DNA of 12,033 nt, taken from contig JAHLWJ010000128.1 in assembly GCA_019057975.1 (NCBI GenBank), forward strand, positions 1 to 12,033, read 5' to 3'. The translations under genes and the position numbers were made by a program. The notes under the pieces were generated by a model. That model did no database searches. It was not told the DNA's origin and saw nothing but the letters and a program-made list of their open reading frames with translations. Source of the DNA: Promethearchaeota archaeon (GTDB taxonomy: Archaea > Asgardarchaeota > Lokiarchaeia > Sigynarchaeales > SOKP01). Positions 1-12,033 of the stretch are shown in pieces (the first letter of the stretch is position 1; each line of letters opens with the position of its first letter).

Positions 1-316
1 TGCACAGCTGCTGGGTCTGGCTAAGAATTACTATGTGTTTTTTCTTTCCTGTTACCATTGCCCATATGGGGTAAGACAAGCTCATAATAGTAGATTTGGC
101 TGATCCTCTAAATGCAGTTATTACTGCTGATCTTATCTTTTCATTTTCAGTTAAGAAAAACATTTTCTTTTGAAATGCTGCTGTTTTGTATTTTATATAA
201 TCGCTTAAGTAAATGATAAAAAACCAGTAATGGGATCTTCTTGCAAGCTCTCTTTTAAATTTTGGGTCTTTTTTTATTTGTTTTTCTATATCCCTTTTAC
301 TTACTTGTTTTTTCAT
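1..316 (-). CDS. phage terminase large subunit, N-terminal part (runs off window)
   Basis: This is the first 105 residues of a phage terminase large subunit, the ATPase/nuclease motor that packages DNA into proheads. The ATG is at 316-314 and the gene leaves the window at base 1. A Walker A loop, AFRGSAKST, lies at about residues 68-76. It is preceded by a basic helical stretch and an aromatic segment (HYWFFIIYL), followed by hydrophobic strands typical of the terminase ATPase core. The start is supported by a strong Shine-Dalgarno site, AAGGGGG, 8 bases upstream. The gene overlaps the end of the small-subunit-like gene by 20 bases, so the two are probably translationally coupled. The Walker B and nuclease parts lie outside the window, so integrity cannot be judged. 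The family call rests on the Walker A context and the neighbouring small subunit. Confidence 0.88.
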   Translation of the reverse strand, partial: MKKQVSKRDIEKQIKKDPKFKRELARRSHYWFFIIYLSDYIKYKTAAFQKKMFFLTENEKIRSAVITAFRGSAKSTIMSLSYPIWAMVTGKKKHIVILSQTQQLC

Positions 317-764
317 TTCTATTACCCCCTTCTAATTCAAATGTTTTATCGGATGATGTAATTTTAAGTGCTTCTTTAATAATTTCTTCTTGCCTTGGAG
401 TTAGCTTTTCTTTGGTTCTGCTAGGTGCCTGCCTTAGTTCAATTCTTGTCTCATATGCTGGGTGATGATGCTTTAACCAGAAAATAATGGCAGTCATATT
501 TTTATCCCTAATAGCACCAAGTAGCTGTGATTCTGCCATATCATTTACAAGAAGGCTTCCTTCAAGAATTGCTGCGTCAGCCTGACTTGTAAACTTGCTA
601 TCTTCCTTTTTCCACCTATAGTATGTAGATCTACCAATTCCTGTCTTTTCACAGACAACTTGTACTATTGGAGTTTTTTTAAGCTGCTCTAAGATTAGTT
701 CTTTTTCTTTCTGTATTCGTCTCTTTATAGTTTCTTCCTTTGGGCTGTTTAATTTATTTTTCAT
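297..764 (-). CDS. terminase small subunit-like HTH protein (phBC6A51 type)
   Basis: A 155-residue protein that probably recognises the phage packaging site and hands DNA to the large subunit encoded next. After a basic N-terminus, residues about 30-55 form a helix-turn-helix (VCEKTGIGRSTYYRWKKED). A helical section with AESQLLGAIRDKNMTAIIFW and HHPAYE follows. This arrangement is seen in phBC6A51-type HTH proteins that sit directly before large terminase genes. The tail is charged and probably disordered. The start at 764 has a strong ribosome site (AAAGGTGAT) about 7 bases upstream. It overlaps the methyltransferase before it by 11 bases and the large subunit after it by 20. The role is inferred from HTH type, size and position; direct homology to a named terminase was not tested. 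Confidence 0.8.
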   Translation of the reverse strand: MKNKLNSPKEETIKRRIQKEKELILEQLKKTPIVQVVCEKTGIGRSTYYRWKKEDSKFTSQADAAILEGSLLVNDMAESQLLGAIRDKNMTAIIFWLKHHHPAYETRIELRQAPSRTKEKLTPRQEEIIKEALKITSSDKTFELEGGNRNEKTSK

Positions 765-1500
765 TATTTATATCACCTTTTAATCTTTTATATCTTGAAA
801 TAATTGTCTTGCAGTAATCTGGGTCTATTTCAACTGTTAAGCACCTTCGTTTCGTTTGTTCACATGCAATTAAAGTAGTTCCTGAGCCTGCAAATGGGTC
901 ATATACAATATCACCGACTTTAGAGCTATTTAGTATCAGTCTTCTTATAAGACCAGCTGGCTTGGTGGTGGGATGGAGTGGGCTTTTATTTGGTTTTGGG
1001 TAGTAAAGAACACTTTTATCCTTAGATTTAAAAAACTTATGAGCCCCATACCAACCGTACGCAATTAGCTCATGCTTTGCTAGATAATCGCGTCTCCCTA
1101 TTACCTGATTGCTTTTTACCCATATCAGAAGTTGAGCAAGCTTAAATCCAGAGAAGTCCATTGCCTCTTTTAACGCAAAGATCATCCTATCTGAGTTAAA
1201 AATATAGGTGGAGTTTTTTTCTGCAAAGTATGGTTTTACTGCAGTCAGCCAATCAATTGTAAATTGTCTGTAGCTATCTTCATTTTTGAAGGTATCATTT
1301 TCTATTATCTTATCTGCCTTTTTAATCTTTCCAAAATTAGCCTTGCTCTCAACATAGCTAACTCCATATGGGGGATCGGCAGCTACTAAGGTAACTTTGC
1401 TTGCTCCAATTAGTTTTTTTACTAAGCGGCTGTCCCTGCAGTCTCCACAGGCAAGTTTATGTTCTCCAAGTTTATATATCTCACCTTTTTTAATTAACAC
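754..1500 (-). CDS. beta-class DNA methyltransferase (N6-adenine or N4-cytosine)
   Basis: A stand-alone S-adenosylmethionine-dependent DNA methyltransferase that modifies an amino group of adenine or cytosine. The order of motifs is that of the beta class. The catalytic DPPY (DPPYGVSY) comes early, at about residues 42-45 from the preferred start. HPTTKP follows near 178, and the cofactor loop DPFAGSG is near 203, followed by TLIACEQ and VEIDP. I prefer GTG at 1500 because an AGAGGTGA ribosome site lies 8 bases upstream. A GTG at 1512 would extend the protein by 4 residues but places that same site on top of the start. With this start the gene overlaps its upstream neighbour by 11 bases, the same overlap as at its other end. 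Its start (YKLGEHKLACGDCRDS) closely resembles the middle of the neighbouring fusion protein, so the two are paralogues. The target sequence cannot be read from the sequence. Confidence 0.88.
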   Translation of the reverse strand: MLIKKGEIYKLGEHKLACGDCRDSRLVKKLIGASKVTLVAADPPYGVSYVESKANFGKIKKADKIIENDTFKNEDSYRQFTIDWLTAVKPYFAEKNSTYIFNSDRMIFALKEAMDFSGFKLAQLLIWVKSNQVIGRRDYLAKHELIAYGWYGAHKFFKSKDKSVLYYPKPNKSPLHPTTKPAGLIRRLILNSSKVGDIVYDPFAGSGTTLIACEQTKRRCLTVEIDPDYCKTIISRYKRLKGDINNEK

Positions 1501-2782
1501 GAACTGCTTCACCTCTGGTTAATTTTTTATATCTATTTATTATTAGATCACAAAATATCGGCTCAATTTCTGCTATAAAACACTTTCTTTTCAGCTGCTC
1601 GCAGGCAATAAGAGTTGAGCCAGAGCCCCCAAATAAATCAAGGATTGTATCTCCAACTTTTGTGCATCTTTTTAGCGGCTTCTCGTGTAAAGTGGGGGGC
1701 TTTTCCGTTGGATGATTATAATTCTGTGCAGGCAGTCTTCTAGCTAGCCAGATGTTAAACAGGTCATATATATCATCAATTATTCTATTTCCCGTTTCCA
1801 CTTCCTTATTTAGAACCTCAGTTAGATTGGTTAACCCGCCTGTTAAATAGGGATTTCCTATAGTGCCATAAACGCAGGCTTCATAAGCTTTGTTAAATGC
1901 TACTTGAGGAGTGACATTCTGATTATTTTTAATCCACAAACATACCCTTTTAAAATCAATACCTATTTGCTTATAGATTTGCTGAAGTAGTCCTATATAT
2001 CTTTCATCACAGTAGCAAAATACGTGAGCATCTTTTTTTACTTTTCTGAGCGTATTTTGTATACTTTTGGCTAAAAAATCCTTGTATTCAGTCTCTGATT
2101 TGTTGTCTTTTGTAAGATGTCCGCCGTATTTTCCTTTGGTTCCTATACCACTGCTATAGTCAAGGGATATATTATATGGCGGGTCAAGGTATACCATGTC
2201 AATTTGAACACTGCCAACAAGCCTGTCTACAAAATAGGTATCTGTTGCATCCCCACAGCCAAGGATATGAGCTCCAAGTGTGTATATACATCCTTGTTTT
2301 GTCTTAATCTCTTTTATTTTTAACAGCTCTTCCTGGGTGTTGAACTCATCGTCCTCAATAGATAAGTTCTCGTCCCAGATGGCTGATAGGTCGGCCTCAT
2401 CAAACCCAATATCAAGAAGTAAGTCAATGTCAAAAGATTTTAAAAGGTCGTAGTCCCAATCTCCTGTATTTCTGTTAAGGCGCAGGTTAAGCTCCTTTTC
2501 TTTATCAATATCTGGAATGTTTACATAAACCACAGGTATTTTTTTAATGCCAAGCTTTTTGGCAATCTCGTATCTAAAATGGCCACCGACCAGGATATTT
2601 TTTCTGTTTGGTGCATTGTTTACTATAAGAGGATCGACAAGGCCAAACCTTTTAATGCTTTCGGTTAGTTTATCTGCTGCAGAGCTGTCCCAGGTCCTAG
2701 GGTTATATTCTGCTGGTTTAAGTTCTGATGCATCGATATAAACTACATTTATTTTTTCACTTGTTCTTTTATTTTTAGCCAT
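1490..2782 (-). CDS. ParB-like nuclease domain / beta-class DNA methyltransferase fusion
   Basis: A 430-residue two-domain protein. Residues about 11-105 form a ParB/Srx-like domain with the conserved box ILVGGHFRYEIAKKLG near 63-78. A linker follows, then a beta-class amino-methyltransferase: YTLGAHILGCGDATD near 167-181, catalytic DPPYNI at 200-205, HPTEKP at 357-362, and the cofactor loop DLFGGSGST at 382-390. Such ParB-methyltransferase fusions are common in phages and prophages, often close to terminase genes, where they probably protect phage DNA from host restriction. The ParB part may aid DNA binding. The start at 2782 has only a weak ribosome site (AAGAAAG). It is the first gene of a four-gene overlapping minus-strand operon and begins 32 bases after a strong hairpin. 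All key motifs look intact. Confidence 0.9.
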   Translation of the reverse strand: MAKNKRTSEKINVVYIDASELKPAEYNPRTWDSSAADKLTESIKRFGLVDPLIVNNAPNRKNILVGGHFRYEIAKKLGIKKIPVVYVNIPDIDKEKELNLRLNRNTGDWDYDLLKSFDIDLLLDIGFDEADLSAIWDENLSIEDDEFNTQEELLKIKEIKTKQGCIYTLGAHILGCGDATDTYFVDRLVGSVQIDMVYLDPPYNISLDYSSGIGTKGKYGGHLTKDNKSETEYKDFLAKSIQNTLRKVKKDAHVFCYCDERYIGLLQQIYKQIGIDFKRVCLWIKNNQNVTPQVAFNKAYEACVYGTIGNPYLTGGLTNLTEVLNKEVETGNRIIDDIYDLFNIWLARRLPAQNYNHPTEKPPTLHEKPLKRCTKVGDTILDLFGGSGSTLIACEQLKRKCFIAEIEPIFCDLIINRYKKLTRGEAVRVN

Positions 2783-2814
2783 ATTATTCTTTCTTAAAAG
2801 AGTATTAATAAAAT

Positions 2815-2843
2815 AAAAGGGAGACCATTTTGGTCTCCCTTTT
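2815..2843. terminator. strong bidirectional rho-independent terminator
   Basis: A perfect 13-bp inverted repeat (AAAAGGGAGACCA and its complement) closes on a 3-base loop and is flanked by T runs in both orientations. On the minus strand it ends the transcript of the MerR-like gene that stops at 2885. It lies only 32 bases before the start of the ParB-methyltransferase gene. Confidence 0.9.
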
Positions 2844-2884
2844 TAGATTTATAATTTTTAATTATTTTTTAAATTCTTTTATAC

Positions 2885-3676
2885 TTAGGCTACTTTTACC
2901 CCACTTTTGTTAAAAATTACTTTCTTTTCCGGATTTTCGAAAAACTTAACTATTATTTCAAACTCACCACTTTTACCTTTATCTATAGTTACATCTACAA
3001 TTGACAAAGAATCATTAACCGAATCTATTCTGCCTAGCTCAAAAAAGGCTCTTAGGATTGAAAACATTTCAAATTCTGTAATTTCCAAAATATTTTTATC
3101 GAAGTATGTCCCTTGGTTTTTTTTCTCACCTTTATTTCTTACCCTATGTGATTCATAATGTTCCCAGTACAGTTCTAACTTTTCTTTATCTTTAAAGTTT
3201 AAAATATTGGATAATTTTATTATTTTTTTAAGTGTAAATTTATGACGTTTTTTTAAGATATTATAAAAATTAATAATCCCTGGTATATTTTCCTTGTATA
3301 TTGAAACAGAACCTTTAATGCCTGGTATTTTTGTAACAATGCCAGGCTCTATTAGTCCTTCAGTTCCATAATATTTAAGCATCCTTTTACTAAGCTCAAT
3401 TCCATACTTTTTCTTAAGAACTTCAATTATTTCATCTTTTGTTAAATATTCACTTTTATGTATTTCTTCAATAGTTCTCATTATAATATTTGAAACATCC
3501 TCGTCTTCAAAACTTGATGGAGATAGTGTAGCTATTATATTTCCATCTCTATCGACCGCAGACCATAATACTCCCTTACAATTACCAAACCTATAATTGC
3601 TGCATAAAAATCCAGCACACTTATTGCCGATTGCTGTGCAATAATTCTTTTTTTGATAGTTTCCTGAGTAAGGCAC
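2885..3676 (-). CDS. cysteine-rich protein with MerR-like helix-turn-helix, function unknown
   Basis: A 263-residue protein of no family I can name. The N-terminus carries a cysteine cluster (NKCAGFLCSNYRFGNC, about residues 18-33) that could hold a metal, followed by VDRDGNIIATLSP. Residues about 78-150 resemble a MerR-type winged HTH: LTKDEIIEVL, then ELSKRMLKYYGTEGLIEP, then a basic helical segment. The remainder is charged, with a beta-rich tail (EFEIIVKFFENPEKKVIF). A DNA-binding regulator is the best guess. The GTG start at 3676 is supported by AAGGGG 12 bases upstream, which is longer than ideal spacing. A second open frame overlaps the 5' end (ATG at 3750, or ATG near 3714). It would join this one if a run of seven A gained one base or slipped, so the true N-terminus is uncertain. 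A single-gene transcript is expected: promoter at 3756-3784, terminator at 2815-2843. Confidence 0.65.
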   Translation of the reverse strand: MPYSGNYQKKNYCTAIGNKCAGFLCSNYRFGNCKGVLWSAVDRDGNIIATLSPSSFEDEDVSNIIMRTIEEIHKSEYLTKDEIIEVLKKKYGIELSKRMLKYYGTEGLIEPGIVTKIPGIKGSVSIYKENIPGIINFYNILKKRHKFTLKKIIKLSNILNFKDKEKLELYWEHYESHRVRNKGEKKNQGTYFDKNILEITEFEMFSILRAFFELGRIDSVNDSLSIVDVTIDKGKSGEFEIIVKFFENPEKKVIFNKSGVKVA

Positions 3677-3721
3677 TTCTTTTTATTACCCCTTGGACTT
3701 AATTTTGGCAACATTACACCT

Positions 3722-3740
3722 ATATTATGGTCAATAATAT
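3722..3740. promoter_or_regulatory. 19-bp dyad in the 5' leader of the MerR-like gene
   Basis: Perfect 7-base arms (ATATTAT / ATAATAT) surround the 5-base centre GGTCA, just downstream of the predicted transcription start. It could be a second operator or a weak hairpin in the leader RNA. The arms contain only A and T, so chance is a real alternative. Confidence 0.3.
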
Positions 3741-3753
3741 TTTGTACCATGTT

Positions 3754-3790
3754 CCATACTATATTATTTTTTTATAACTGTCAAGTATGG
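3754..3790. promoter_or_regulatory. inverted repeat bracketing the promoter (possible operator)
   Basis: Seven-base arms CCATACT (3754-3760) and AGTATGG (3784-3790) are exact complements. They enclose the promoter, touching its -10 and -35 boxes, and their centre falls in the spacer. MerR-family regulators bind dyads in promoter spacers, although usually with more compact arms. Autoregulation by the downstream gene is an inference. Confidence 0.4.
3756..3784 (-). promoter_or_regulatory. sigma-70 type promoter of the MerR-like gene
   Basis: On the minus strand a perfect -35 box TTGACA (3784-3779) is followed after exactly 17 bases by TAGTAT (3761-3756). Transcription should start near 3749. 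The leader to the GTG at 3676 is then about 73 bases, and the upstream ATG at 3750 would lie at or before the transcript start. Confidence 0.7.
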
Positions 3791-3804
3791 TTTTATTTAA
3801 GATT

Positions 3805-3823
3805 TGAAATTTAACTATAAGAA
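3805..3823 (+). repeat. left terminal inverted repeat of the IS
   Basis: TGAAATTTAACTATAAGAA matches the complement of 6026-6044 except at one position (A versus C at the ninth base). It lies 14 bases beyond the promoter dyad of the neighbouring regulator gene. Confidence 0.85.
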
Positions 3824-3998
3824 CTTAAAAAACAGCTAAGTATTGGTGAAAAATTACTATCAAACTAAAATATTGATTTTATTTATAAAATTTATGGTGA
3901 AATTAAGAATAAAATATAAATTATTAGAAAATTAACCGGTAAAATTATTTTAGAGGAAAATTTTAGAGTAGCTTAAATACTGCTGTTAAAATTTATAA

Positions 3999-5507
3999 CT
4001 AATCGGCCAGTCCCAATCTTTTCTTAGCTTCTTCTGGATCTATACGAAAAAATATTTTAGGTGGAGCTCTTACAATAATTGAATATTCTTCTACATCAAA
4101 TATTGCAAAATATTCTCCAGAAAATACAATAAGTTTATGAATAGTGCTCATATCTTCATCTCTTAGTCTTCTTATCCCTTTATTGGTAAGGGCTCTTCCC
4201 AGTTTAGTTTGAAAACAGGCGTTGAGTGAATACATTATAAGAGTAAGTATAGTATGTGATACTATAGCACTTTTTTTCTTCATAGAAATCTTAGCTAGAT
4301 TCCAGCCTTGTTTTAGTTCTCTAAAGAGTTTGTTTTCAATTAAACTTCTAAGCGAGTAGTTATCTATAATCTTTAAAGGCTCAGTAACATCAAGGCTTGT
4401 GGCAAATACTTTTTCATGTCCTGGGCCATACTGCCTGCCATTCCACTCTGTTACCATTACACAATTTATTAAGTTTGGTTTAAAATTTTTCTTGTATCTA
4501 TTTTTGTAGTGCTCCTCATCTCCATACTGATCATATGTTGTAAGAGAAGCTACTGCCAAAATCCTAAGACCTCTTTTTTTGTCTTCTCCTATAGTCGCAA
4601 AGTCAGAGTCTCTAAAGCTTCTAACATCGGAGGCCAGATGCATATTTGTTCTAATTCTTACAATAAAATCTACACCCAGTTTATATTTTATTATCCACAG
4701 AGTTTTCCCATCCATAAATCCGTTGTCAATAAGTAGAAGTCTTATTTTTCTCTTCCCGATATTCCTTTTGGCCTGGGCAAGTAAGCTAAGTGTATGCTTT
4801 GACTCATGGTCGGCTATCTTTACTACTTTTGCTGCTACTATCACTCTGGATACTTTCTCCCATATAACAATAAGTTTATAACCGTAAACAAGTTCCTCCC
4901 TCTCTATCCACTTTCCTTTTTGTTTTAGATACCTTTTTCTTTTTACCTTTTTTACCCCTCTACCTTCACATCTTTCCGTGGTCTCTATATCTGTAGCATC
5001 CAGGATGAATTTAGAACCACAAATAAATCCTTTTTTGGCCAAGATTTGTACAGTGCTGTCCAGCATTTCATTTACTTCAGCTGCAGTTAACCTGGAAAGC
5101 ATACGTGCTAGTGTATTTTTATTTATAGGTATTGATTTACCTTTGCCTCTGGCACATGATCCATTTTTTATCTGTGTAGCTGTAAATCCAATCATAGAAA
5201 GTAGGGCTATCTCTCTAAAAAGAAGAGCGGGAACCTTGTTCATAGATGATATTCCAAGTAGAATCTTCATAGAGTAGGTGGTTATTAGCATAACAATAGG
5301 TAGCATTATTCTTTTGTATCCAACTGATTTTATATCAATTATTTTAAGGAATCTTATGCTGTATAAAAAGTAGAAAAAGTTGTCCAGAAATCCCCAGCCT
5401 GTACCAGTAATGGTATCAACATTTCCTTCCCTTACTGCTTTTGCAACCTTTTTGTCATTTCTTTCGTGAAACTTCCAGAATATTTTACTGTTTTCTATTA
5501 TTGCCAT
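3999..5507 (-). CDS. IS4-type DDE transposase
   Basis: A 502-residue transposase that catalyses cut-and-paste movement of the surrounding element. The RNase H-like triad is visible. D170 is in ILDATDIETTE and D261 in LLIDNGFMDG. E391 is in YSLRSLIENKLFRELKQ, the Y-x2-R-x3-E pattern of the IS4 superfamily followed by lysine. The N-terminal third is largely hydrophobic and basic. Length and motifs indicate an intact protein. The ATG at 5507 is created by the end of a run of nine A, has no recognisable ribosome site, and overlaps the preceding DUF6788-like gene by 23 bases. Translation is therefore probably coupled, or depends on slippage at the A run to make a fusion. Placement in a specific IS family beyond the IS4 type is not certain. 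Confidence 0.88.
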   Translation of the reverse strand: MAIIENSKIFWKFHERNDKKVAKAVREGNVDTITGTGWGFLDNFFYFLYSIRFLKIIDIKSVGYKRIMLPIVMLITTYSMKILLGISSMNKVPALLFREIALLSMIGFTATQIKNGSCARGKGKSIPINKNTLARMLSRLTAAEVNEMLDSTVQILAKKGFICGSKFILDATDIETTERCEGRGVKKVKRKRYLKQKGKWIEREELVYGYKLIVIWEKVSRVIVAAKVVKIADHESKHTLSLLAQAKRNIGKRKIRLLLIDNGFMDGKTLWIIKYKLGVDFIVRIRTNMHLASDVRSFRDSDFATIGEDKKRGLRILAVASLTTYDQYGDEEHYKNRYKKNFKPNLINCVMVTEWNGRQYGPGHEKVFATSLDVTEPLKIIDNYSLRSLIENKLFRELKQGWNLAKISMKKKSAIVSHTILTLIMYSLNACFQTKLGRALTNKGIRRLRDEDMSTIHKLIVFSGEYFAIFDVEEYSIIVRAPPKIFFRIDPEEAKKRLGLAD

Positions 5508-5895
5508 TTTTTTTTATCGCGTCTATTTTAACTGTACTTGCTTTTTCAATCTCGTCAAGAAGCGTAAGTATTTCTTTGTTTATCTTTGAAATATCAGCAC
5601 GTGATTTTCTCCACTGCTTGTAATTGTTATTTAATTTTATTGCTTTATCCCACAGGTGTCTTCTTATAAATATCATCTTTGTTTTTTTATCCTTACTGAA
5701 GGATAGATAATAAAATGGACCATGAAGCTCACCTCTTGTGCATTTGCAGCCTGCCTTGCCACATGCTTTGTATTTTTTTACAACTGAGCCGTATAGCATC
5801 TTTTTTCTTGAGAGAATCCTTAACATGTTCATCTCAATTTTAAATCTATCAAGGCTTAAGTCTTTAATTTTTTTTCTTATTTTTGATATATCCAT
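5485..5895 (-). CDS. DUF6788-like accessory protein of the IS
   Basis: A small, basic 136-residue protein. An N-terminal helix is followed by a core with YGSVVKKYKACGKAGCKC and GELHGPFYYLSF, about residues 35-66. The cysteines at about 45, 50 and 52 could bind metal. A charged coiled-coil-like helix then runs to the end. This core matches my recollection of the DUF6788 family, found beside IS4-like transposases. Its biochemical role is unknown; DNA or transposase binding is a guess. It is the first gene of the IS operon, with a promoter at 5932-5960. The ATG at 5895 has a poor ribosome site, and the final codons run through the A9 tract where the transposase begins. Confidence 0.75.
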   Translation of the reverse strand: MDISKIRKKIKDLSLDRFKIEMNMLRILSRKKMLYGSVVKKYKACGKAGCKCTRGELHGPFYYLSFSKDKKTKMIFIRRHLWDKAIKLNNNYKQWRKSRADISKINKEILTLLDEIEKASTVKIDAIKKNGNNRKQ

Positions 5896-5931
5896 ATTAT
5901 CAGGGACTTATATATTTATATTACAGACCTG

Positions 5932-5960
5932 ATTTTAGTTAAAAAAATACAAAATGTCAA
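5932..5960 (-). promoter_or_regulatory. promoter of the IS operon
   Basis: On the minus strand TTGACA (5960-5955) is followed after exactly 17 bases by TAAAAT (5937-5932), a near-consensus sigma-70 promoter. Transcription would begin around 5925, about 30 bases before the DUF6788-like start, and read through both IS genes. Confidence 0.75.
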
Positions 5961-6025
5961 ATTTTTTGAAATTTTTTTATCATAGCCAAAAATCACTGAT
6001 TTTAAGTTGATTTTTTATTAGCTAA

Positions 6026-6044
6026 TTCTTATAGTGAAATTTCA
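6026..6044 (-). repeat. right terminal inverted repeat of the IS
   Basis: Read on the minus strand it is TGAAATTTCACTATAAGAA, the partner of the left repeat with one mismatch. The LVIVD-repeat reading frame resumes almost immediately outside it, which helps to place the element boundary. Confidence 0.85.
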
Positions 6045-6046
6045 GT

Positions 6047-6352
6047 TATTTAATAGATATTTCAGACAAAGAGAACCCAACAATGGTAGGAGAAGCTTTT
6101 GCTTCCGGTAATATAGGATACGTTTTTGTTGAAGGAGACTATGCTTACATAACATGTGTAGTTAGGGACGATGATTGGCAAGTTAAGGAAAGCGGCATGC
6201 AAATAATAGGTGTTTAAAACAAGAATGCTTCTACAGTTGTCACGGGGGTTGAAATTCCACGCGAAGCAACATGAATTTTTATTGAGGGAGATTATGCTTA
6301 TGTTGGAGCTGGTCCAGTAGGCTTACATATATTAAAATTATACGCAGATTAA
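6047..6352 (+). pseudogene. 3' remnant of an LVIVD-repeat (beta-propeller) protein
   Basis: One reading frame (codon starts at 6047, 6050 and so on) encodes LIDISDKENPTMVGEA, GYVFVEGDYAYIT, GMQIIGV, NKNASTVVTGVEIP, IFIEGDYAYVGAG and GLHILKLYAD. These are successive blades of the LVIVD-repeat type, which form extracytoplasmic beta-propellers. The frame is broken by TAA at 6215-6217, where a serine TCA would be expected, and TGA at 6272-6274. Its natural stop is TAA at 6350-6352. The 5' part is missing, and the frame begins directly at the IS right end. Both breaks look like point mutations, so the gene is long dead or was inactivated after truncation. Original partners and substrate are unknown. 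Confidence 0.85.
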
Positions 6353-6385
6353 AACTTCCTCTAACAATTAAATAAAAAGCATCTT

Positions 6386-6416
6386 AACACCCTAATCTTT
6401 ATAGTTAGGGTGTTTT
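6386..6416 (+). terminator. rho-independent terminator after the LVIVD remnant
   Basis: A perfect 10-bp stem (AACACCCTAA / TTAGGGTGTT) with a 9-base loop is followed by a short T tract on the plus strand, 34 bases after the pseudogene stop. It isolates the downstream endonuclease gene from read-through. Confidence 0.8.
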
Positions 6417-6427
6417 ACTCCTGATAG

Positions 6428-6433
6428 TATAAT
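6428..6433 (+). promoter_or_regulatory. possible -10 box for the HNH endonuclease gene
   Basis: TATAAT is a perfect -10 match, but 17 bases upstream there is only TTAGGG, within the terminator. It would give a leader of about 95 bases. No better promoter was found in 6417-6534, which is otherwise AT-rich with no gene. Confidence 0.2.
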
Positions 6434-6534
6434 TTTAAGAACATCTTAATGTCTTTATGGGGTGAACCCTATTTATACTTTTTAATAATATGATGATATT
6501 ATAAATCCACATACCAATTATTTATAGTGATAAT

Positions 6535-7647
6535 ATGAAAAGTGTTAAATATATAATCTTTCGTTATCTAACTAATGCAGAATTTTTTAATATTAATAAA
6601 CCATCAGGTACAGAGGAGAGTGGTGGAGGTCAAGCATATATTGATTTTCCTATAATATCGATTCCCATATCAAAATGGGATATGTTTTTTTCTAATTCCC
6701 CTAATGTACAAAAATCTACACGTACTAGAGGACCAAGTTGGGAATTTATAGTTCAAAGCATCGGATGTAATAAACAACAGAAACTTACAATTTATCAACG
6801 TAGACCTCAATCAGTTTGTATAGGATCTCAACGTATAACAAGTCCTAGAGAAAATAGAGTTAAAGCTTGGCATCCAGAAAATGGTTTTCCTGTACCCGAT
6901 GATTCTATGAACCGAAAAGCTCTGCCTCCAAATTTGGCAGTTTTTCTTATTAAAACTTACGATAATCAATTTTGGGCAGGTTGGTTTCAAAAAGAAATAC
7001 CAACTAAAGATACAAGATCTGTTTCAAGAATCTTATACATGTTAAATAATTCAGGAGAAGAAGGATTTGCTGGATTTCTTGAATATGAAAAAGACATTCT
7101 TTTTATTGATAAAAGTGATAGAAATCATCCTTTTTACTCTACAAGAATTATTGCAAAAAAAGAGGAAAAACGGAAAGTTTTAGATCAACAGAAAGAAATT
7201 AATAAACAAGAAGAACAAGATATAACCCAAAAGCTTTTCAAAGAAGACCAAAAAAAACATTTAGACACATCGACAAAAGAGATTATAAAAAGAGTTAGAA
7301 AAAGAAATATACAAGCAATAAAAGATTTAAAAATTTTATATGGAGGAAAATGTCAAATAACAAATGAATATTCATTCCTTAAAAAAGATGGGACAATGTA
7401 TTCAGAAGGCCATCACCTTATACCTTTAGGAGAAAAAGGTGCTGATGATCCATATAATATAATTATTGTAAGCCCATTAATTCATAGAATGCTCCACTAT
7501 GCAGATGTCGGAAAAATAGACTTAAGTAAAATTTCTAAAGTCAATAATACACTACCAGTTATTATAAACAGAAAGAAATACACTATAAAATGGCATCCCG
7601 GACATGCTAAATACGTAAGACGCTATCAAGCGAAAAAGATCAAATAA
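6535..7647 (+). CDS. HNH-type restriction endonuclease (predicted)
   Basis: A 370-residue protein predicted to cleave DNA lacking the modification made by the two methyltransferases that converge on it. The C-terminal HNH (beta-beta-alpha metal) nuclease is clear. C273 is in KCQITN, histidines 293-294 are in EGHHLIPLG, N308 is in DPYNIIIVSP, and histidines 317 and 321 are in LIHRMLHYADV. Residues about 205-265 are a lysine- and glutamate-rich helical linker. The N-terminal 200 residues (GGGQAYIDFP, IYQRRPQSV, AWHPENGFPV, FWAGWF) are conserved-looking but not a domain I can name, and probably recognise the target sequence. The start ATG has no clear Shine-Dalgarno site. The function is inferred from domain plus genomic context; the cleavage site is unknown. 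It could also be a modification-independent HNH enzyme, but its placement argues against that. Confidence 0.8.
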   Translation: MKSVKYIIFRYLTNAEFFNINKPSGTEESGGGQAYIDFPIISIPISKWDMFFSNSPNVQKSTRTRGPSWEFIVQSIGCNKQQKLTIYQRRPQSVCIGSQRITSPRENRVKAWHPENGFPVPDDSMNRKALPPNLAVFLIKTYDNQFWAGWFQKEIPTKDTRSVSRILYMLNNSGEEGFAGFLEYEKDILFIDKSDRNHPFYSTRIIAKKEEKRKVLDQQKEINKQEEQDITQKLFKEDQKKHLDTSTKEIIKRVRKRNIQAIKDLKILYGGKCQITNEYSFLKKDGTMYSEGHHLIPLGEKGADDPYNIIIVSPLIHRMLHYADVGKIDLSKISKVNNTLPVIINRKKYTIKWHPGHAKYVRRYQAKKIK

Positions 7648-7663
7648 TACTTTATTTTTTCTT
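7636..7663. terminator. weak AT hairpin shared by two convergent genes
   Basis: The arms AAGA-tc-AAATAA and TTATTT-tt-TCTT pair around a TACT loop with a 2-base internal mismatch. The stop codons of the endonuclease and the D12 methyltransferase both fall within it, and T runs follow on each strand. It has almost no G-C pairs, so any termination would be leaky. Confidence 0.35.
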
Positions 7664-8734
7664 AATGTAAAAAAGATATTCTACTAATATTGGAGACAAA
7701 GAACTCTTATTACTTCGAAAACGTTTATGTTTAAATTTATAAGTTTCTACTTTACCAAATTGAGAAAATAAAGATATCAATTCATCAAAACTGAGTAAAC
7801 CATCTTCACTATAACTTACAAAAAAGTTTTGGCAATCCATTTTATTTATAATTTTTTCAAAAGAAGATTTTATTTTAGTCTTAGTACAAAAATTTGAATA
7901 CTGATCTCTCCAAGGTCTTAAACCACTTTTACCGACTGCTATTGGATTATCCCCTCGGGCTAAAGTCTCGAGAATATGATAATTAGCAGCATATTGACGT
8001 TTCATGTATGGTGGATCTATGTAACAAACATCACATTTAATCATAGATGCAATATCTTCAGCATATCCTTGAATAACAGTATGCTTTGATTGTTTTTCAG
8101 ATAATAAGATTTTTAATGGTTTTAACAATATTTTATCATTTGCACGTCCAGATAGTTTAGAAAGATAGTGGCCATAAGTACCTGAAATGTTTGCAATATT
8201 ATTTGTTGCCATAATAAGATTATGAAGTAATAATGAATATTCTAATTCAGTAATACAATCCTCTTCTTTTAATTTCTTTACCCAATATCGGATAGAATCA
8301 ATTTTTTTAGCATTAAACGGTGAAAAATAATTCCTTGGTTCAGAACCATTTTTTGGTATACCTTCCCTCGAAAACTCCCTCCAAAAGTAACCTTTTTTTA
8401 AAGGTAGGTTATTAAATGCTGCGATTATTTTTTCATATGGTGTTTTTTCAAAAAGAGAATTATTGCCTTCTTTATAAAATTTTAAAATAAATGATTTTGC
8501 TTTTGAAAATCTAGGCATAGATTTAAATAACAAAGCTACTCTAGCATGATGATATGAATATGTCATTATATCAACTGCAGTGACCCGAAAACCATGTTTT
8601 TTAAAAATCAAAGATACTGAAGCAGTTCCACACATCAAATCTGTAATATGTGCATTCTTAGAATCAACTTTTTTAATCTTTGGTAGTATTTCATCAATTA
8701 CTTGTGTTTTTGTTCCTATGTATCTAAATCCCAT
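7652..8734 (-). CDS. D12-class adenine-specific DNA methyltransferase
   Basis: A 360-residue alpha-class N6-adenine methyltransferase. The cofactor motif near the N-terminus reads DLMCGTASVS (about residues 32-41), a variant of the usual DxFxGxG with a cysteine, followed by AVDI near 54. The catalytic motif CYIDPPYMKRQY is at about 237-248, with YHILETLARGDNP just after, as in D12-family enzymes of type II and IIS systems. The region between motifs (about 70-220) is probably the target-recognition part. It overlaps the upstream TaqI-like methyltransferase by 11 bases and has no Shine-Dalgarno site, so translation is likely coupled. Its stop is 4 bp from the stop of the convergent nuclease. 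It probably methylates one strand of an asymmetric site, with its neighbour methylating the other. The length is normal. Confidence 0.88.
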   Translation of the reverse strand: MGFRYIGTKTQVIDEILPKIKKVDSKNAHITDLMCGTASVSLIFKKHGFRVTAVDIMTYSYHHARVALLFKSMPRFSKAKSFILKFYKEGNNSLFEKTPYEKIIAAFNNLPLKKGYFWREFSREGIPKNGSEPRNYFSPFNAKKIDSIRYWVKKLKEEDCITELEYSLLLHNLIMATNNIANISGTYGHYLSKLSGRANDKILLKPLKILLSEKQSKHTVIQGYAEDIASMIKCDVCYIDPPYMKRQYAANYHILETLARGDNPIAVGKSGLRPWRDQYSNFCTKTKIKSSFEKIINKMDCQNFFVSYSEDGLLSFDELISLFSQFGKVETYKFKHKRFRSNKSSLSPILVEYLFYIKKK

Positions 8735-10505
8735 AATTGAATATATCTGTTAAAGAAATATTTTTTAAAGCTTTTACAGGTAGTAATTCTTCTGATTTAT
8801 ATATTGTATTAAAGATTATTTCATAATCTTTTTCAGACAACCCAAAGAGTTCAGCAATTAATTGTTCAATTTTAGCATCTATGTTCTTAGGTATAGTGTA
8901 ACCTTTCTTTAGTGAACTCCTAATGAGCTTCGTAATTCTTTGAATAGTTACATTATAAGATGAGCTAAAAATCAGCTTTGGTAGTGGGAAATTAAGAATT
9001 TGTGATTGAGTAAGATAGGGATGAGAACGCCATTCAATTTCACCATGATTTTTAATTAGAAAATAATACAATGCTCGTGAATTTAAAATTGCTAACAATA
9101 ATTCAATGGTTATATTCTTTGGACATGTCTCTTTTAATTTAAGAATATAGACAACTTGGTTTGTCATAGAATTAGTATAATCAATAGAAGCCACGATGCC
9201 AACTCCAGTTTTTCTAACAAGGATTTTTGGACTTTTATATATTTTATAATCCTTATAATTTATCCCATTACGATCTAGTAATACATATTTGTTAATACTC
9301 AATGCGTATCTTGAAATATTTTCACCAACTATTAGAGGTACATCACTTTTACAAGATTTAAAATCTTTAATAATGATATCATGCTCAAGTTTTGTCAAAT
9401 TAAGAGATGAACCGCAGTGCGGGCACATAGGTTCTTTGGAACAAGGATATGGCAACCAAAGCATGCATTTATTACACTTGACAACCTTACCATTTTTTGA
9501 AAGTTCAATACCACGAGCAGAATTTGCAATTTTTCCAAAAGTATATTGATCTTGAAGAATTCTTATTGCTTTCTCTTCATTGGAGTTTAGGTCAATATTA
9601 AATAAATAATCACTATTTTTGTAAAAACGATATTGTTTAACTTTATGAGAAAGTACTTTTTCAGCATCGATAAATGTAATCCTTGAATTATTTATTTGTT
9701 CTCGCGTTTGCTTGGTTAAACGAAAGCATAGAGTAGAATTATTTTTCGATGGCTTTTTTTTCCTAGCAATTATGACTGCACAACCTCTATTAATTTTTTT
9801 AAAAATTTTCTCTCCCAATCGAGCTATTAATAATATTTCAGTTTTTTGTAATAATATTTTTCTCAAAGATGATTTTTCTTTATTAAATAAGGAATCTGGA
9901 ATAATAAAAGCAAGATACCCACCATACTTAACAATATATAAAGCAAGTTCAATGAACAAATCATAAGAATCATATTGACCTAGAGCAAGAGAAAAATTTT
10001 GTTTTAGTTTATCTTGATAGTATGTAAGGTCTGCCCCCCAAGGTGGGTTAGCAATTAAAATGTCAAATCCCTTTTGTGCCCCAAATTCGGTTTTCAAATC
10101 TTGCCAACTTTTCCAAGTGTTCAAATTACCATTTGGTAATAAAGCGTTTGTAATTAAAAAATTATGCTTAAAGTTTTTATTTCTAAAAATTCTTTCTTTT
10201 GCTTTCAATATAAGTTTTTTATTAATATCGATACCATAAAAAATTTTCTCTGGAGAATTTATTTTAAATTTACTAAAATTTTCCATCGTTTCTTTGATTG
10301 ATACTAACAAATTACCATCTCCACAAGCTGGGTCAATTACTTTGAGATGATTGAATAACTGTTTCAGGTTTGTTTTTTTAGTAGTTTCGCTAATATAATT
10401 GATTATCTTCCATGCCACATAATTTGAAAGATTGTCAGGTGTAAAAAAGATTCCATTTTTTTTAATATAATCATCAGAAAATTTTAATTTTGAACCTTCA
10501 TTCAT
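8724..10505 (-). CDS. TaqI-like (gamma-class) adenine methyltransferase with internal zinc ribbon
   Basis: A 593-residue N6-adenine methyltransferase of the TaqI/Eco57I type. FFTPDNLSNYVAWKI at about 20-34 is motif X. The cofactor loop VIDPACGDGNLL is at 56-67, the acidic motif YGIDI near 90-94, and the catalytic NPPW at 153-156. After the catalytic domain lies a TaqI-like specificity region with RGIELSKNG, VPLIVGENISRY, ILVRKTGVGI and TNQVVYILKL. Within it is a CxxC-x13-CxxC zinc ribbon (C344, C347, C361, C364). No nuclease motif was seen, so this is a modification subunit rather than a fused restriction enzyme. It starts 28 bp after the XRE regulator gene and overlaps the D12 gene by 11 bases. 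The ribosome site is weak. Specificity cannot be inferred. Confidence 0.88.
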   Translation of the reverse strand: MNEGSKLKFSDDYIKKNGIFFTPDNLSNYVAWKIINYISETTKKTNLKQLFNHLKVIDPACGDGNLLVSIKETMENFSKFKINSPEKIFYGIDINKKLILKAKERIFRNKNFKHNFLITNALLPNGNLNTWKSWQDLKTEFGAQKGFDILIANPPWGADLTYYQDKLKQNFSLALGQYDSYDLFIELALYIVKYGGYLAFIIPDSLFNKEKSSLRKILLQKTEILLIARLGEKIFKKINRGCAVIIARKKKPSKNNSTLCFRLTKQTREQINNSRITFIDAEKVLSHKVKQYRFYKNSDYLFNIDLNSNEEKAIRILQDQYTFGKIANSARGIELSKNGKVVKCNKCMLWLPYPCSKEPMCPHCGSSLNLTKLEHDIIIKDFKSCKSDVPLIVGENISRYALSINKYVLLDRNGINYKDYKIYKSPKILVRKTGVGIVASIDYTNSMTNQVVYILKLKETCPKNITIELLLAILNSRALYYFLIKNHGEIEWRSHPYLTQSQILNFPLPKLIFSSSYNVTIQRITKLIRSSLKKGYTIPKNIDAKIEQLIAELFGLSEKDYEIIFNTIYKSEELLPVKALKNISLTDIFNYGI

Positions 10506-10533
10506 AAACTTATCTAATTCTTAAATTATTGCC

Positions 10534-10860
10534 TTAACCTCTTTCTTCATTTATTCTAAAAGATTTAATTACATTAGCAATAGTTTTTTTTGCTTCTTTG
10601 CTAAGACTCTCATAATCTTTGAAAAGAACTTGTGCCTCAGCACAAAGATTGTCCAAAGCATTTTTGCTCTTAAGCAATTGGCTTAATGAGACATTAAGTA
10701 CTTTAGAAATTTTATCCAAAGTTTTCAAAGAGGGGTTTTTCCCACTATTTTCGAATTGGGATAAAACTGAGCGCGAGATGCCAGCTCTAAAAGCTAACTC
10801 CTTTTGTGTCAAACCCACTACATTTCTATACTCTTTGATTCTATTAGGTATTTTATACAT
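10534..10860 (-). CDS. XRE-family HTH regulator, probable controller of the R-M cassette
   Basis: A 108-residue protein. The N-terminal XRE/Cro-type helix-turn-helix covers about residues 7-62 (IKEYRNVVGLTQKELAFRAG, ISRSVLSQFENSGKNPSLKT, LDKISKVLNVSLSQLL). The helical C-terminal tail of about 45 residues is longer than in the smallest C proteins. It is first in the operon with both methyltransferases and is followed after 28 bp by the TaqI-like gene. By analogy with controller proteins of type II restriction-modification systems, it probably binds its own promoter, sets methyltransferase output and may time nuclease expression. The predicted leader is very short and no ribosome site is visible. 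The regulatory role is inferred from position and family. Confidence 0.82.
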   Translation of the reverse strand: MYKIPNRIKEYRNVVGLTQKELAFRAGISRSVLSQFENSGKNPSLKTLDKISKVLNVSLSQLLKSKNALDNLCAEAQVLFKDYESLSKEAKKTIANVIKSFRINEERG

Positions 10861-10877
10861 TGTTTAACATCTGTTTA

Positions 10878-10911
10878 CTATAGATTAACAATAAAGTTGC
10901 TATAAGTCAAC
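10878..10911 (-). promoter_or_regulatory. promoter with 22-bp-spaced direct repeat, probable operator of the XRE gene
   Basis: On the minus strand TTGACT (10910-10905) is followed after 17 bases by TAATCT (10887-10882). Overlapping the two boxes are similar 12-mers, GTTGACTTATAG and GTTAATCTATAG, exactly 22 bp (two helical turns) apart. A third pair, TGTTTA repeated at 10861-10866 and 10872-10877, lies between the promoter and the ATG. The transcript would start about 15 bases before the ATG at 10860. Confidence 0.5.
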
Positions 10912-11003
10912 ATTTAAATTTATTCAAAAGCAATTTATTCAATCAATTATGTAAAAACATTCTCACCTAAACAAATTTTTAGTTCCAATTCTACTAGTCC
11001 ATT

Positions 11004-11036
11004 TCCTAACTCTCAACTTAGACTAGTTTTTGGGGG
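11004..11036 (+). repeat. 33-bp direct repeat, copy 1 (IS3-type end)
   Basis: It matches 11786-11818 at 30 of 33 positions. Its last 18 bases (11019-11036, ending ACTAGTTTTTGGGGG) are one of three direct copies of the same IS end, followed by ACCCTCA. It looks like the 3' end of an IS3-family element whose body is missing. Confidence 0.75.
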
Positions 11037-11042
11037 ACCCTC

Positions 11043-11741
11043 ATGCGCATAAGGGATATTGCCTCGACAAGGGTTAGGTATGGGTACAAGCGGATACATG
11101 TGCTACTCTGCCGTGAGGGGTGGAAGGTAAACCATAAACGTGTATACCGCATTTATCGCCAGGAAGGATTGAATCTGCGTCATAAAGGAAGACGAAAACA
11201 AATCAGTAGAGCCAGGATCCCGATAGTGGATGTGACTGGAGTCAATCAGTGTTGGGCCATGGATTTTGTATCTGATGCTCTCTTTAATGGGAGGCGCTTT
11301 AAGGCACTTACCATGATGGATGTTTACAGTAGAGAGTGCTTGAATATTTATGCAGATAAGAAAATTACTGGAGATACGGTAGTAGACATACTAGATAGTA
11401 TTAGCTACCATAGAGGACGACCTGAAAGGATAAGAGTGGACAATGGCCCTGAGTTTATCTCCAGGGCGCTTGATGCCTGGAGTTATGAAAATAACATTAA
11501 GCTGGAGTTCTCTCGTCCTGGAAAGCCAACTGACAATGCCTTCATTGAGTCGTTTAATGGTAGTCTAAGAGATGAGTGTTTTAATACTAACTGGTTCTTG
11601 TCAATCGAGGATGCACAGAGTAAGCTAGAGGCATGGCGAAGAGACTATAATGAGTTTCGTCCTCATAGTTCTCTGGGTAATATGACACCTTATGATTTCG
11701 CCAGAAGCCTGCCGGTAGGGGCAGATAAGCCATATTACTGA
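11043..11741 (+). pseudogene. IS3-family transposase OrfB, N-terminally truncated
   Basis: This stretch encodes 232 residues of an IS3-type OrfB integrase. The HTH_21 part (VRYGYKRIHVLLCREGWKVN) is followed by the rve core with D74 in WAMDF, D133 in RVDNGPEF and E169 in FIESFNG. That is an exact D-35-E spacing. HSSLGNMTPYDF closes the domain. The catalytic triad is intact, but about 50 N-terminal residues and the whole OrfA are absent. Upstream in frame there is a stop at 11019-11021, and an IS end directly abuts the first codon. The fragment is therefore unlikely to support transposition alone, though it could be translated. Its base composition is visibly more GC-rich than the genes to the left, consistent with separate origin. 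Confidence 0.85.
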
Positions 11742-11750
11742 CATTTTAAG

Positions 11751-11768
11751 TGGACTAGTTTTTGGGGG
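11751..11768 (+). repeat. 18-bp IS end, copy 2
   Basis: TGGACTAGTTTTTGGGGG lies 10 bases after the orfB stop and is followed by CCCTCA. It is probably the right terminal repeat of the orfB-bearing element, because IS3-family ends finish in CA. Confidence 0.75.
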
Positions 11769-11785
11769 CCCTCAACCGGCCTGAA

Positions 11786-11818
11786 TCCTAACTTTCAAAT
11801 TGGACTAGTTTTTGGGGG
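11786..11818 (+). repeat. 33-bp direct repeat, copy 2, containing third 18-bp IS end
   Basis: It repeats 11004-11036 with three mismatches. Its last 18 bases (11801-11818) are identical to 11751-11768. It directly precedes the frame of a truncated nuclease-like gene, so it marks the outer boundary of the IS3 cluster. Confidence 0.75.
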
Positions 11819-11819
11819 A

Positions 11820-11960
11820 AAGGTCATATCACCAGATATGTTGCGATCAGCAAATACTGTTCGCTATGTTATGGAATCTGGAAAGGTTAGTTCTAAAAAT
11901 AGAAATAGTCGAATGGCATCTGATCATTTTGCAGTTTATTGTAAAATCGAGATAGATTAA
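11820..11960 (+). pseudogene. C-terminal remnant of an endonuclease/exonuclease/phosphatase-like protein
   Basis: A frame running from the IS3 cluster edge to TAA at 11958-11960 encodes about 46 residues, KVISPDMLRSANTVRYVM to RMASDHFAVYCKIEID. The SDH motif near the end (ASDHFAVY) is the characteristic C-terminal active-site motif of the endonuclease/exonuclease/phosphatase fold, where the histidine is catalytic. Everything upstream is replaced by IS sequence, so the gene is broken here. The assignment rests on a short segment; a chance match is possible but the position of SDH just before the C-terminus fits well. The remaining 73 bases of the window contain no gene that I can see. Confidence 0.6.
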
Positions 11961-12033
11961 TATACAATACTTTATAAATTAGGTAATTATACCATAGGAG
12001 CACGTATTGTAAATGCGGTTTTCCTTTTATTTA

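Follow-up and report, generated by a model that had tools for sequence, protein, structure and literature searches.

A predicted B3-guided HNH restriction-modification cassette with two adenine-type methyltransferases on an archaeal contig

We analysed a 12,033-nucleotide (nt) stretch of DNA from Promethearchaeota archaeon (GenBank assembly GCA_019057975.1, contig JAHLWJ010000128.1, positions 1 to 12,033 of the forward strand; hereafter the window), in which a preliminary description had placed a restriction-modification cassette made up of an HNH nuclease, an alpha-class D12 methyltransferase, a gamma-class TaqI-like methyltransferase and a C-like regulator. The four open reading frames (ORFs) that it described match the ORF list in position and strand, and their catalytic motifs are intact; motifs and Pfam matches from the profile searches also agree that one methyltransferase is of the alpha and one of the gamma adenine type, with the HNH nuclease a separate protein. 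The gamma and D12 genes share 11 nt, and the D12 gene is convergent with the nuclease gene across a gap of 4 nt.

The cassette and its proteins

The genes, and the domains and motifs within them, are as follows.

6535-7647, plus strand: HNH nuclease gene, 370 aa, a predicted restriction endonuclease with a B3-like N-terminal recognition domain and a C-terminal HNH nuclease domain (from the ORF list, homologues, alignment and an AlphaFold model)
6535-7149, plus strand: predicted B3-like DNA-recognition pseudobarrel, about residues 1-205, from structure matches
7150-7269, plus strand: variable, low-confidence linker, about residues 206-245 (block means of the predicted local distance difference test, pLDDT, 46-78; mean top-residue fraction 0.34)
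7411-7485, plus strand: HNH active site H293-H294 / N308 / H317, within the nuclease part of about residues 246-370
7652-8734, minus strand: alpha-class D12 adenine DNA methyltransferase gene, 360 aa
8006-8017, minus strand: catalytic motif IV (DPPY) of the D12 enzyme, residues 240-243, invariant in 28 aligned sequences
8724-10505, minus strand: gamma-class TaqI/BseCI-like adenine DNA methyltransferase gene, 593 aa
8982-9338, minus strand: TaqI_C target-recognition domain of the gamma enzyme, residues 390-508 (PF12950, E 9.9e-13)
9414-9476, minus strand: zinc-ribbon-like CxxC...CxxC insert between the catalytic and recognition parts, residues 344-364, with C344, C347, C361 and C364 invariant in 28 aligned sequences
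10038-10049, minus strand: catalytic motif IV (NPPW) of the gamma enzyme, residues 153-156, invariant in 28 aligned sequences
10534-10860, minus strand: XRE-family helix-turn-helix (HTH) regulator gene, 108 aa, accessory; 28 nt separate it from the gamma gene, which lies downstream

The AlphaFold model of the nuclease has a mean pLDDT of 89.6, and structure comparison matches its N-terminal domain to the B3 fold, with LlaJI.R1, UbaLAI and BfiI nearest. The preliminary description had not recognised this region as a domain; it is predicted instead to take a known fold, a B3-like pseudobarrel, in a module that also occurs on other cutters. The C-terminal domain aligns with HNH structures, and H293, H294, N308 and H317 are invariant across 112 aligned proteins; in Pfam the protein reaches HNH models weakly and below threshold only, and EcoKMcrA is matched over part of the HNH domain (E 6.3e-6). 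The TagI and VcaM4I chains align to residues 234-365 and 233-364, respectively, which is the HNH part only, and their N-terminal modification-sensor domains are unmatched, although such a missing match would be compatible with a PUA-superfamily sensor fold before the HNH domain. The window protein carries HNH in place of the phospholipase D (PLD, HKD) nuclease domain of the BfiI type, and likewise in place of a McrB-like AAA+ domain following the B3 domain.

The D12 enzyme matches PF02086 (E 1.6e-29) and has motif I and, about 200 aa further on, DPPY; the PADLOC model MTase_II (PDLC03287) matches over positions 2-339 (E 6.4e-68), and the length of that model, 646 positions, presumably fits M.FokI. 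For the gamma enzyme, the Pfam matches are N6_Mtase (E 1.4e-19), Eco57I (1.4e-18) and TaqI_C, and residues 15-275 match the M.BseCI structure 7qw5 (E 1.7e-12).

Conservation of the cassette and exchange of the cutter

The nuclease has 321 homologues at E<=1e-3, with 41-53% identity over 79-100% of the query among the 120 matches listed. A contig scan by peptide patterns from the nuclease only found 37 genome loci, 23 of which were scored for gene order, the nuclease match in these running from residue 24 or earlier to residue 357 or later (L026 is without the first 23 residues). The 14 loci not scored are four AAA+ fusions (L032, L034-L036), two with a NOV_C-type end (L040, L041) and eight set aside: L027 and L028 (matches 1-310, broken frames at the contig end, no neighbour visible), L029 and L039 (C-terminal fragments), L033, L037 and L038 (Nostoc, HNH part only), and L042 (short HNH match).

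The D12 gene is adjacent to and convergent with the nuclease gene in every scored locus (23/23), and the gamma gene comes next on the D12 strand in 22 of the 23; at L024 the contig ends first. Stop-to-stop gaps between the nuclease and D12 genes range from -23 to +105 nt, 18 of the 23 lying between -23 and +3. Among the hosts are members of Chloroflexota, Bacteroidota, Pseudomonadota, Planctomycetota, Ignavibacteriota and Deferribacterota as well as two archaea; the convergent pair is also present in a further genome, G010, and the same arrangement is found on three Rhodobacterales plasmids of 16-19 kb and seven viral contigs. One of these viral contigs, L043, gives scores like those of L012 throughout, and the two may be one element. 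The preliminary description had grouped four genes; three of them recur together in a fixed order in other genomes, so that its refuting condition, genes that never co-occur elsewhere, does not hold for these three, and the regulator is an accessory to them.

That regulator matches HTH_3 in Pfam (E 9.2e-18) and, in PADLOC, a control-protein model (4.2e-11) that ranks behind HTH_VI (1.4e-17). In a search with a hidden Markov model built from seven XRE sequences, 11 of 38 cassettes have an XRE frame no more than about 700 nt away, located upstream of either the gamma or the nuclease gene or of both; 7 of the 11 positive cassettes are the source of the training sequences, while L007, L017, L019 and L030 are not. 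Sites resembling a C-box, which we take to have the consensus GACTNNNAGTC, number 29 within the window at two or fewer mismatches, against 34.1 expected, and so are not above chance. Since XRE frames lie near 11 of the 38 cassettes only, control-protein models fit worse than other XRE models, and C-box-like sites are at chance, we take the core to be three genes and the XRE gene to be accessory; the C-like regulator first proposed thus stands as an XRE gene, with a C-protein role unproven.

Conservation of the methyltransferases was assessed in 28 of the 38 cassettes, leaving out L002, L024, L026 and the viral contigs L043-L049. In the gamma enzyme, the recognition region (residues 371-520) has a mean identity to the window protein of 0.43 and the zinc-ribbon insert 0.45, compared with 0.33 for residues 1-330. 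As restriction systems diverge, their recognition regions usually drift, so that a recognition region better kept than the catalytic part suggests that the members of clade I may share one target, although the conserved residues may instead be structural. The D12 figures support a shared target less than the gamma figures do: the insert that separates motif I from motif IV, presumably the recognition part, stands at 0.41 with 25 invariant positions, against 0.48 and 0.67 for the flanking motif regions.

Relatives of the B3 domain are found fused to a McrB-like AAA+ motor (with McrC), to a PD-(D/E)XK-like domain or to another HNH domain, and in the loci read they adjoin a gamma methyltransferase related to that of the window. 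The AAA+ fusions among the loci are L032, L034, L035 and L036; Bacteroidota relatives of the window cassette carry such a fusion, and in L034 a McrC-like gene comes next; the zinc-ribbon-like cysteine pattern of the gamma enzyme recurs in L040 and L041. Because the B3 relatives sit on several types of cutter beside a related gamma methyltransferase, the B3 domain is a specificity module that is portable between interchangeable cutters. The tree was drawn from a set of 274 proteins, of which seven were left out (P0220, P0228, P0238, P0259, P0267, P0271 and P0273); its labels come from the homologue search and domain classing and, for P0252-P0274 and the seven AAA+ rows outside that classing, from a precomputed Pfam column.

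The family is sporadic. The clade I alignment matched 4 of 295 genomes of the phylum of L016, and only L016's own genome over the full length; the clade II alignment matched 15 of 400 genomes of the phylum of L040, with a match to the N-terminal domain in G001, G002, G005 and G010 only, and gave no match among viral contigs. The nuclease protein is matched in nine plasmid records, in three cases along most of its length, and has no match in the phage collection; L040's protein found only the three known Rhodobacterales plasmids. The clade II proteins P0255 and P0258 match 1023 and 242 plasmid records, but among the matches listed (20 and 12) these start at residue 215 or later and 145 or later, respectively, chiefly outside the B3 domain, and add no further context.

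Leaving aside genes truncated at contig ends, the damaged copies seen in the set of 38 cassettes are L002 and L026, the latter with a shortened gamma ORF. In L002 (plasmid CP081163.1, locus 7109-9500) both methyltransferase genes are fragmented and the nuclease ORF is whole, in which it differs from its close relative L003; L002 is either a natural test of whether the nuclease alone is harmless or a sequencing error. A recombinase-family gene (5380-5919) lies immediately upstream of the nuclease gene in the Rhodobacterales plasmids L001, L002 and L003, and the cassette may move with it there. In the Nostoc loci L033, L037 and L038 (about 10001-10450) the HNH part alone matches, from query residue 199 or 222 to 351; no window-type methyltransferase was detected in the stretch retrieved, and the L033 protein has a different N-terminal region. 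Two of the proteins left out of the tree, P0238 and P0273, are single chains that join a methyltransferase part (MT-A70, or a D12-like tail judged by eye) to a B3-like domain, and are either real fusions or frame-joined gene ends.

A restriction-modification reading and its alternatives

The gene order, the integrity of the motifs, the predicted B3 and HNH folds, the conservation and the exchange of cutters on the B3 family are the computed basis on which we consider it very probable that the cassette is a Type II-like restriction-modification system for an asymmetric site, with the gamma and D12 enzymes marking opposite strands and the B3-HNH protein cutting the unmethylated site. In the mechanism that we infer, each strand of the asymmetric site would have an adenine methylated by its own enzyme, one strand by the gamma TaqI-like and the opposite one by the alpha D12 enzyme; the B3-like pseudobarrel would read the site when it is unmethylated, and the C-terminal HNH (beta-beta-alpha-metal) domain would cut, probably a short distance away since a flexible linker joins the two domains. 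Methylation would block binding by the B3 domain, by which the host would be protected, and the XRE protein would probably regulate the methyltransferase operon.

The asymmetry of the site has to be weighed against a palindromic or partly symmetric one, with methyltransferases that are redundant, serve different substrates or include one backup. The computed data are compatible with either symmetry, and UbaLAI, whose B3 domain ranks among the nearest matches, recognises a nearly symmetric site. We nevertheless regard this as unlikely, since both enzyme classes occur together in all 22 loci where both genes are visible, each with a conserved recognition region; in addition, asymmetric sites are what LlaJI and BfiI recognise with their B3-type domains (PMC1459862; PMC4081073; PMC12707154), which by analogy supports an asymmetric one here. 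That the window copy is a decayed, nonfunctional cassette between insertion elements, in a family otherwise real, is quite unlikely: its neighbours do include an IS4-type transposase, an IS3-family fragment and a broken LVIVD-like remnant, but none of the three core ORFs is shortened, and all positions that are invariant in the aligned relatives are present in them.

An HNH domain is also what the cassette has in common with the modification-dependent Type IV enzymes EcoKMcrA, TagI and VcaM4I, so that the HNH protein could be a nuclease of this kind that stands beside the methyltransferase pair by chance or acts on foreign methylation. We rejected this as the main explanation and think it very unlikely, given that TagI and VcaM4I match the HNH part only whereas the N-terminal domain matches B3 structures, and that the pairing with two methyltransferases is constant, such that a nuclease aimed at their product would be suicidal; the window differs from these enzymes in its B3-like domain and in the adjacent methyltransferases.

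Among restriction-modification systems, LlaJI is a Type II/IV hybrid with the site GACGC, in which R1 joins a B3 domain to a McrB-like AAA+ domain, R2 is of the PD-(D/E)XK type and both methyltransferases make 5-methylcytosine (5mC). As far as the available text of the sources goes, LlaJI reads its unmodified asymmetric site via the B3 domain and has two methyltransferases (PMC1459862; PMC12707154; PMC7680126), and it resembles the window cassette in the B3-type domain on a restriction protein, the two methyltransferases and the plasmid-borne copies (PMC1459862). In the window, by contrast, the nuclease is HNH rather than AAA+, there is no second restriction subunit, the methyltransferases are of the alpha and gamma adenine type rather than 5mC, and the nuclease gene is convergent where the four LlaJI genes are similarly oriented; since the AAA+ motor that defines LlaJI is absent, the cassette need not be a LlaJI system. 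BfiI, whose B3-like domain is described in the text consulted as fused to an unrelated nuclease and reading an asymmetric site (PMC4081073), is with BmrI a Type IIS enzyme for ACTGGG with a PLD nuclease; the window nuclease is HNH, with recognition at the N terminus and not at the C terminus. HpyAV / Hin4II is an HNH Type IIS system (CCTTC 6/5) with C5 and N6A methyltransferases, and the part of its description available to us (PMC2816704) gives an HNH nuclease with two methyltransferase activities for an asymmetric site and catalytic residues H294, H295, N311 and H320, the spacing of which resembles that of H293, H294, N308 and H317 in the window protein. This likeness is one of description and residue spacing, not of protein comparison, and HpyAV has one C5 enzyme where the window has two adenine-type enzymes. 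In comparison with D12 enzymes of the M.FokI type, the window enzyme has a single D12 domain, the second strand falling to the gamma-class enzyme. The Alw26I/Eco31I/Esp3I family has an HNH restriction endonuclease, a gamma N6-methyladenine methyltransferase and a partner methyltransferase that makes 5mC; the window gamma enzyme matches TIGR02987 in part (78.9 bits, E 3.4e-22), below the cut-off of 353.5.

We predict that the cassette is a two-methyltransferase, B3-guided Type II system, for which the papers searched gave no named prototype. Among the open-licence papers listed in the searches, no title or abstract shown described a B3-HNH restriction enzyme or such a three-gene family, REBASE and subscription papers being outside this scope, where named members may exist; a 2026 BREX survey mentions, in the text available, other HNH fusions only (PMC12839542).

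The family links simple HNH enzymes with LlaJI/McrBC-type motor nucleases, which are commonly treated as separate kinds of restriction system, through one B3-like domain family and related methyltransferases. It offers natural domain swaps from which the base choice of B3 domains could be learned, and it leads to a prediction, open to test, that distant members have one target in common. It is possible, but rather doubtful, that members as far apart as Chloroflexota, Bacteroidota and archaea keep the same asymmetric target through an unchanging recognition set (B3 domain, gamma recognition domain and D12 insert) and exchange the cutter, which may be HNH, a McrBC-type motor nuclease or PD-(D/E)XK; we hold back on this because the catalytic flanks of the D12 insert are better conserved than the insert itself. 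If true, the family would amount to a 'chassis' for restriction-modification, its specificity frozen while the effector evolves; Type I systems do the opposite, swapping specificity and retaining the motor. If the nuclease is indeed a site-specific HNH enzyme accompanied by two separate adenine methyltransferases, it would have value as a reagent too.

Surroundings of the cassette

The cassette is flanked by the IS4-type transposase at 3999-5507 and the IS3-family fragment at 11043-11741. Upstream of the nuclease gene, at about 6063-6350, lies what is left of an LVIVD-like repeat gene, broken by in-frame stops, the LVIVD call having been made by eye. The 17-mer GGACTAGTTTTTGGGGG occurs around the IS3-family fragment, at 11020, 11752 and 11802 (one copy mismatched), against none in 200 shuffles, and its copies are possibly insertion-element ends.

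The G+C content is 27-30% in windows over 6501-11000 and 34-38% over 1-3000; positions 2501-4500 are as poor in G+C as the cassette (27-30%), so composition says little about transfer. A search for plasmid DNA related to 6000-11050 gave two records only, with 3% covered at 71%. Nothing convincing was found by way of repeats at 10830-11000, and over 6300-11050 there are 34 promoter-like sites against 27.7 in shuffles and 3 terminator-like sites against 1.8, which we did not use as evidence.

On the minus strand, 2885-3676 holds a 263-aa ORF that has no Pfam or NCBIfam match above cut-off and a start overlapped by a 71-aa ORF; it may be a mobile-element gene. Positions 1-2782, also on the minus strand, hold a phage-like module: at the left edge, a frame in which a terminase-like ATPase motif was seen by eye; an HTH protein at 297-764 with weak terminase-small and transposase-type matches; and, at 754-1512 and 1490-2782, another two N6_N4 methyltransferases, of which one has a ParB domain. 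Relatives of the ParB-methyltransferase were matched in 580 phage records.
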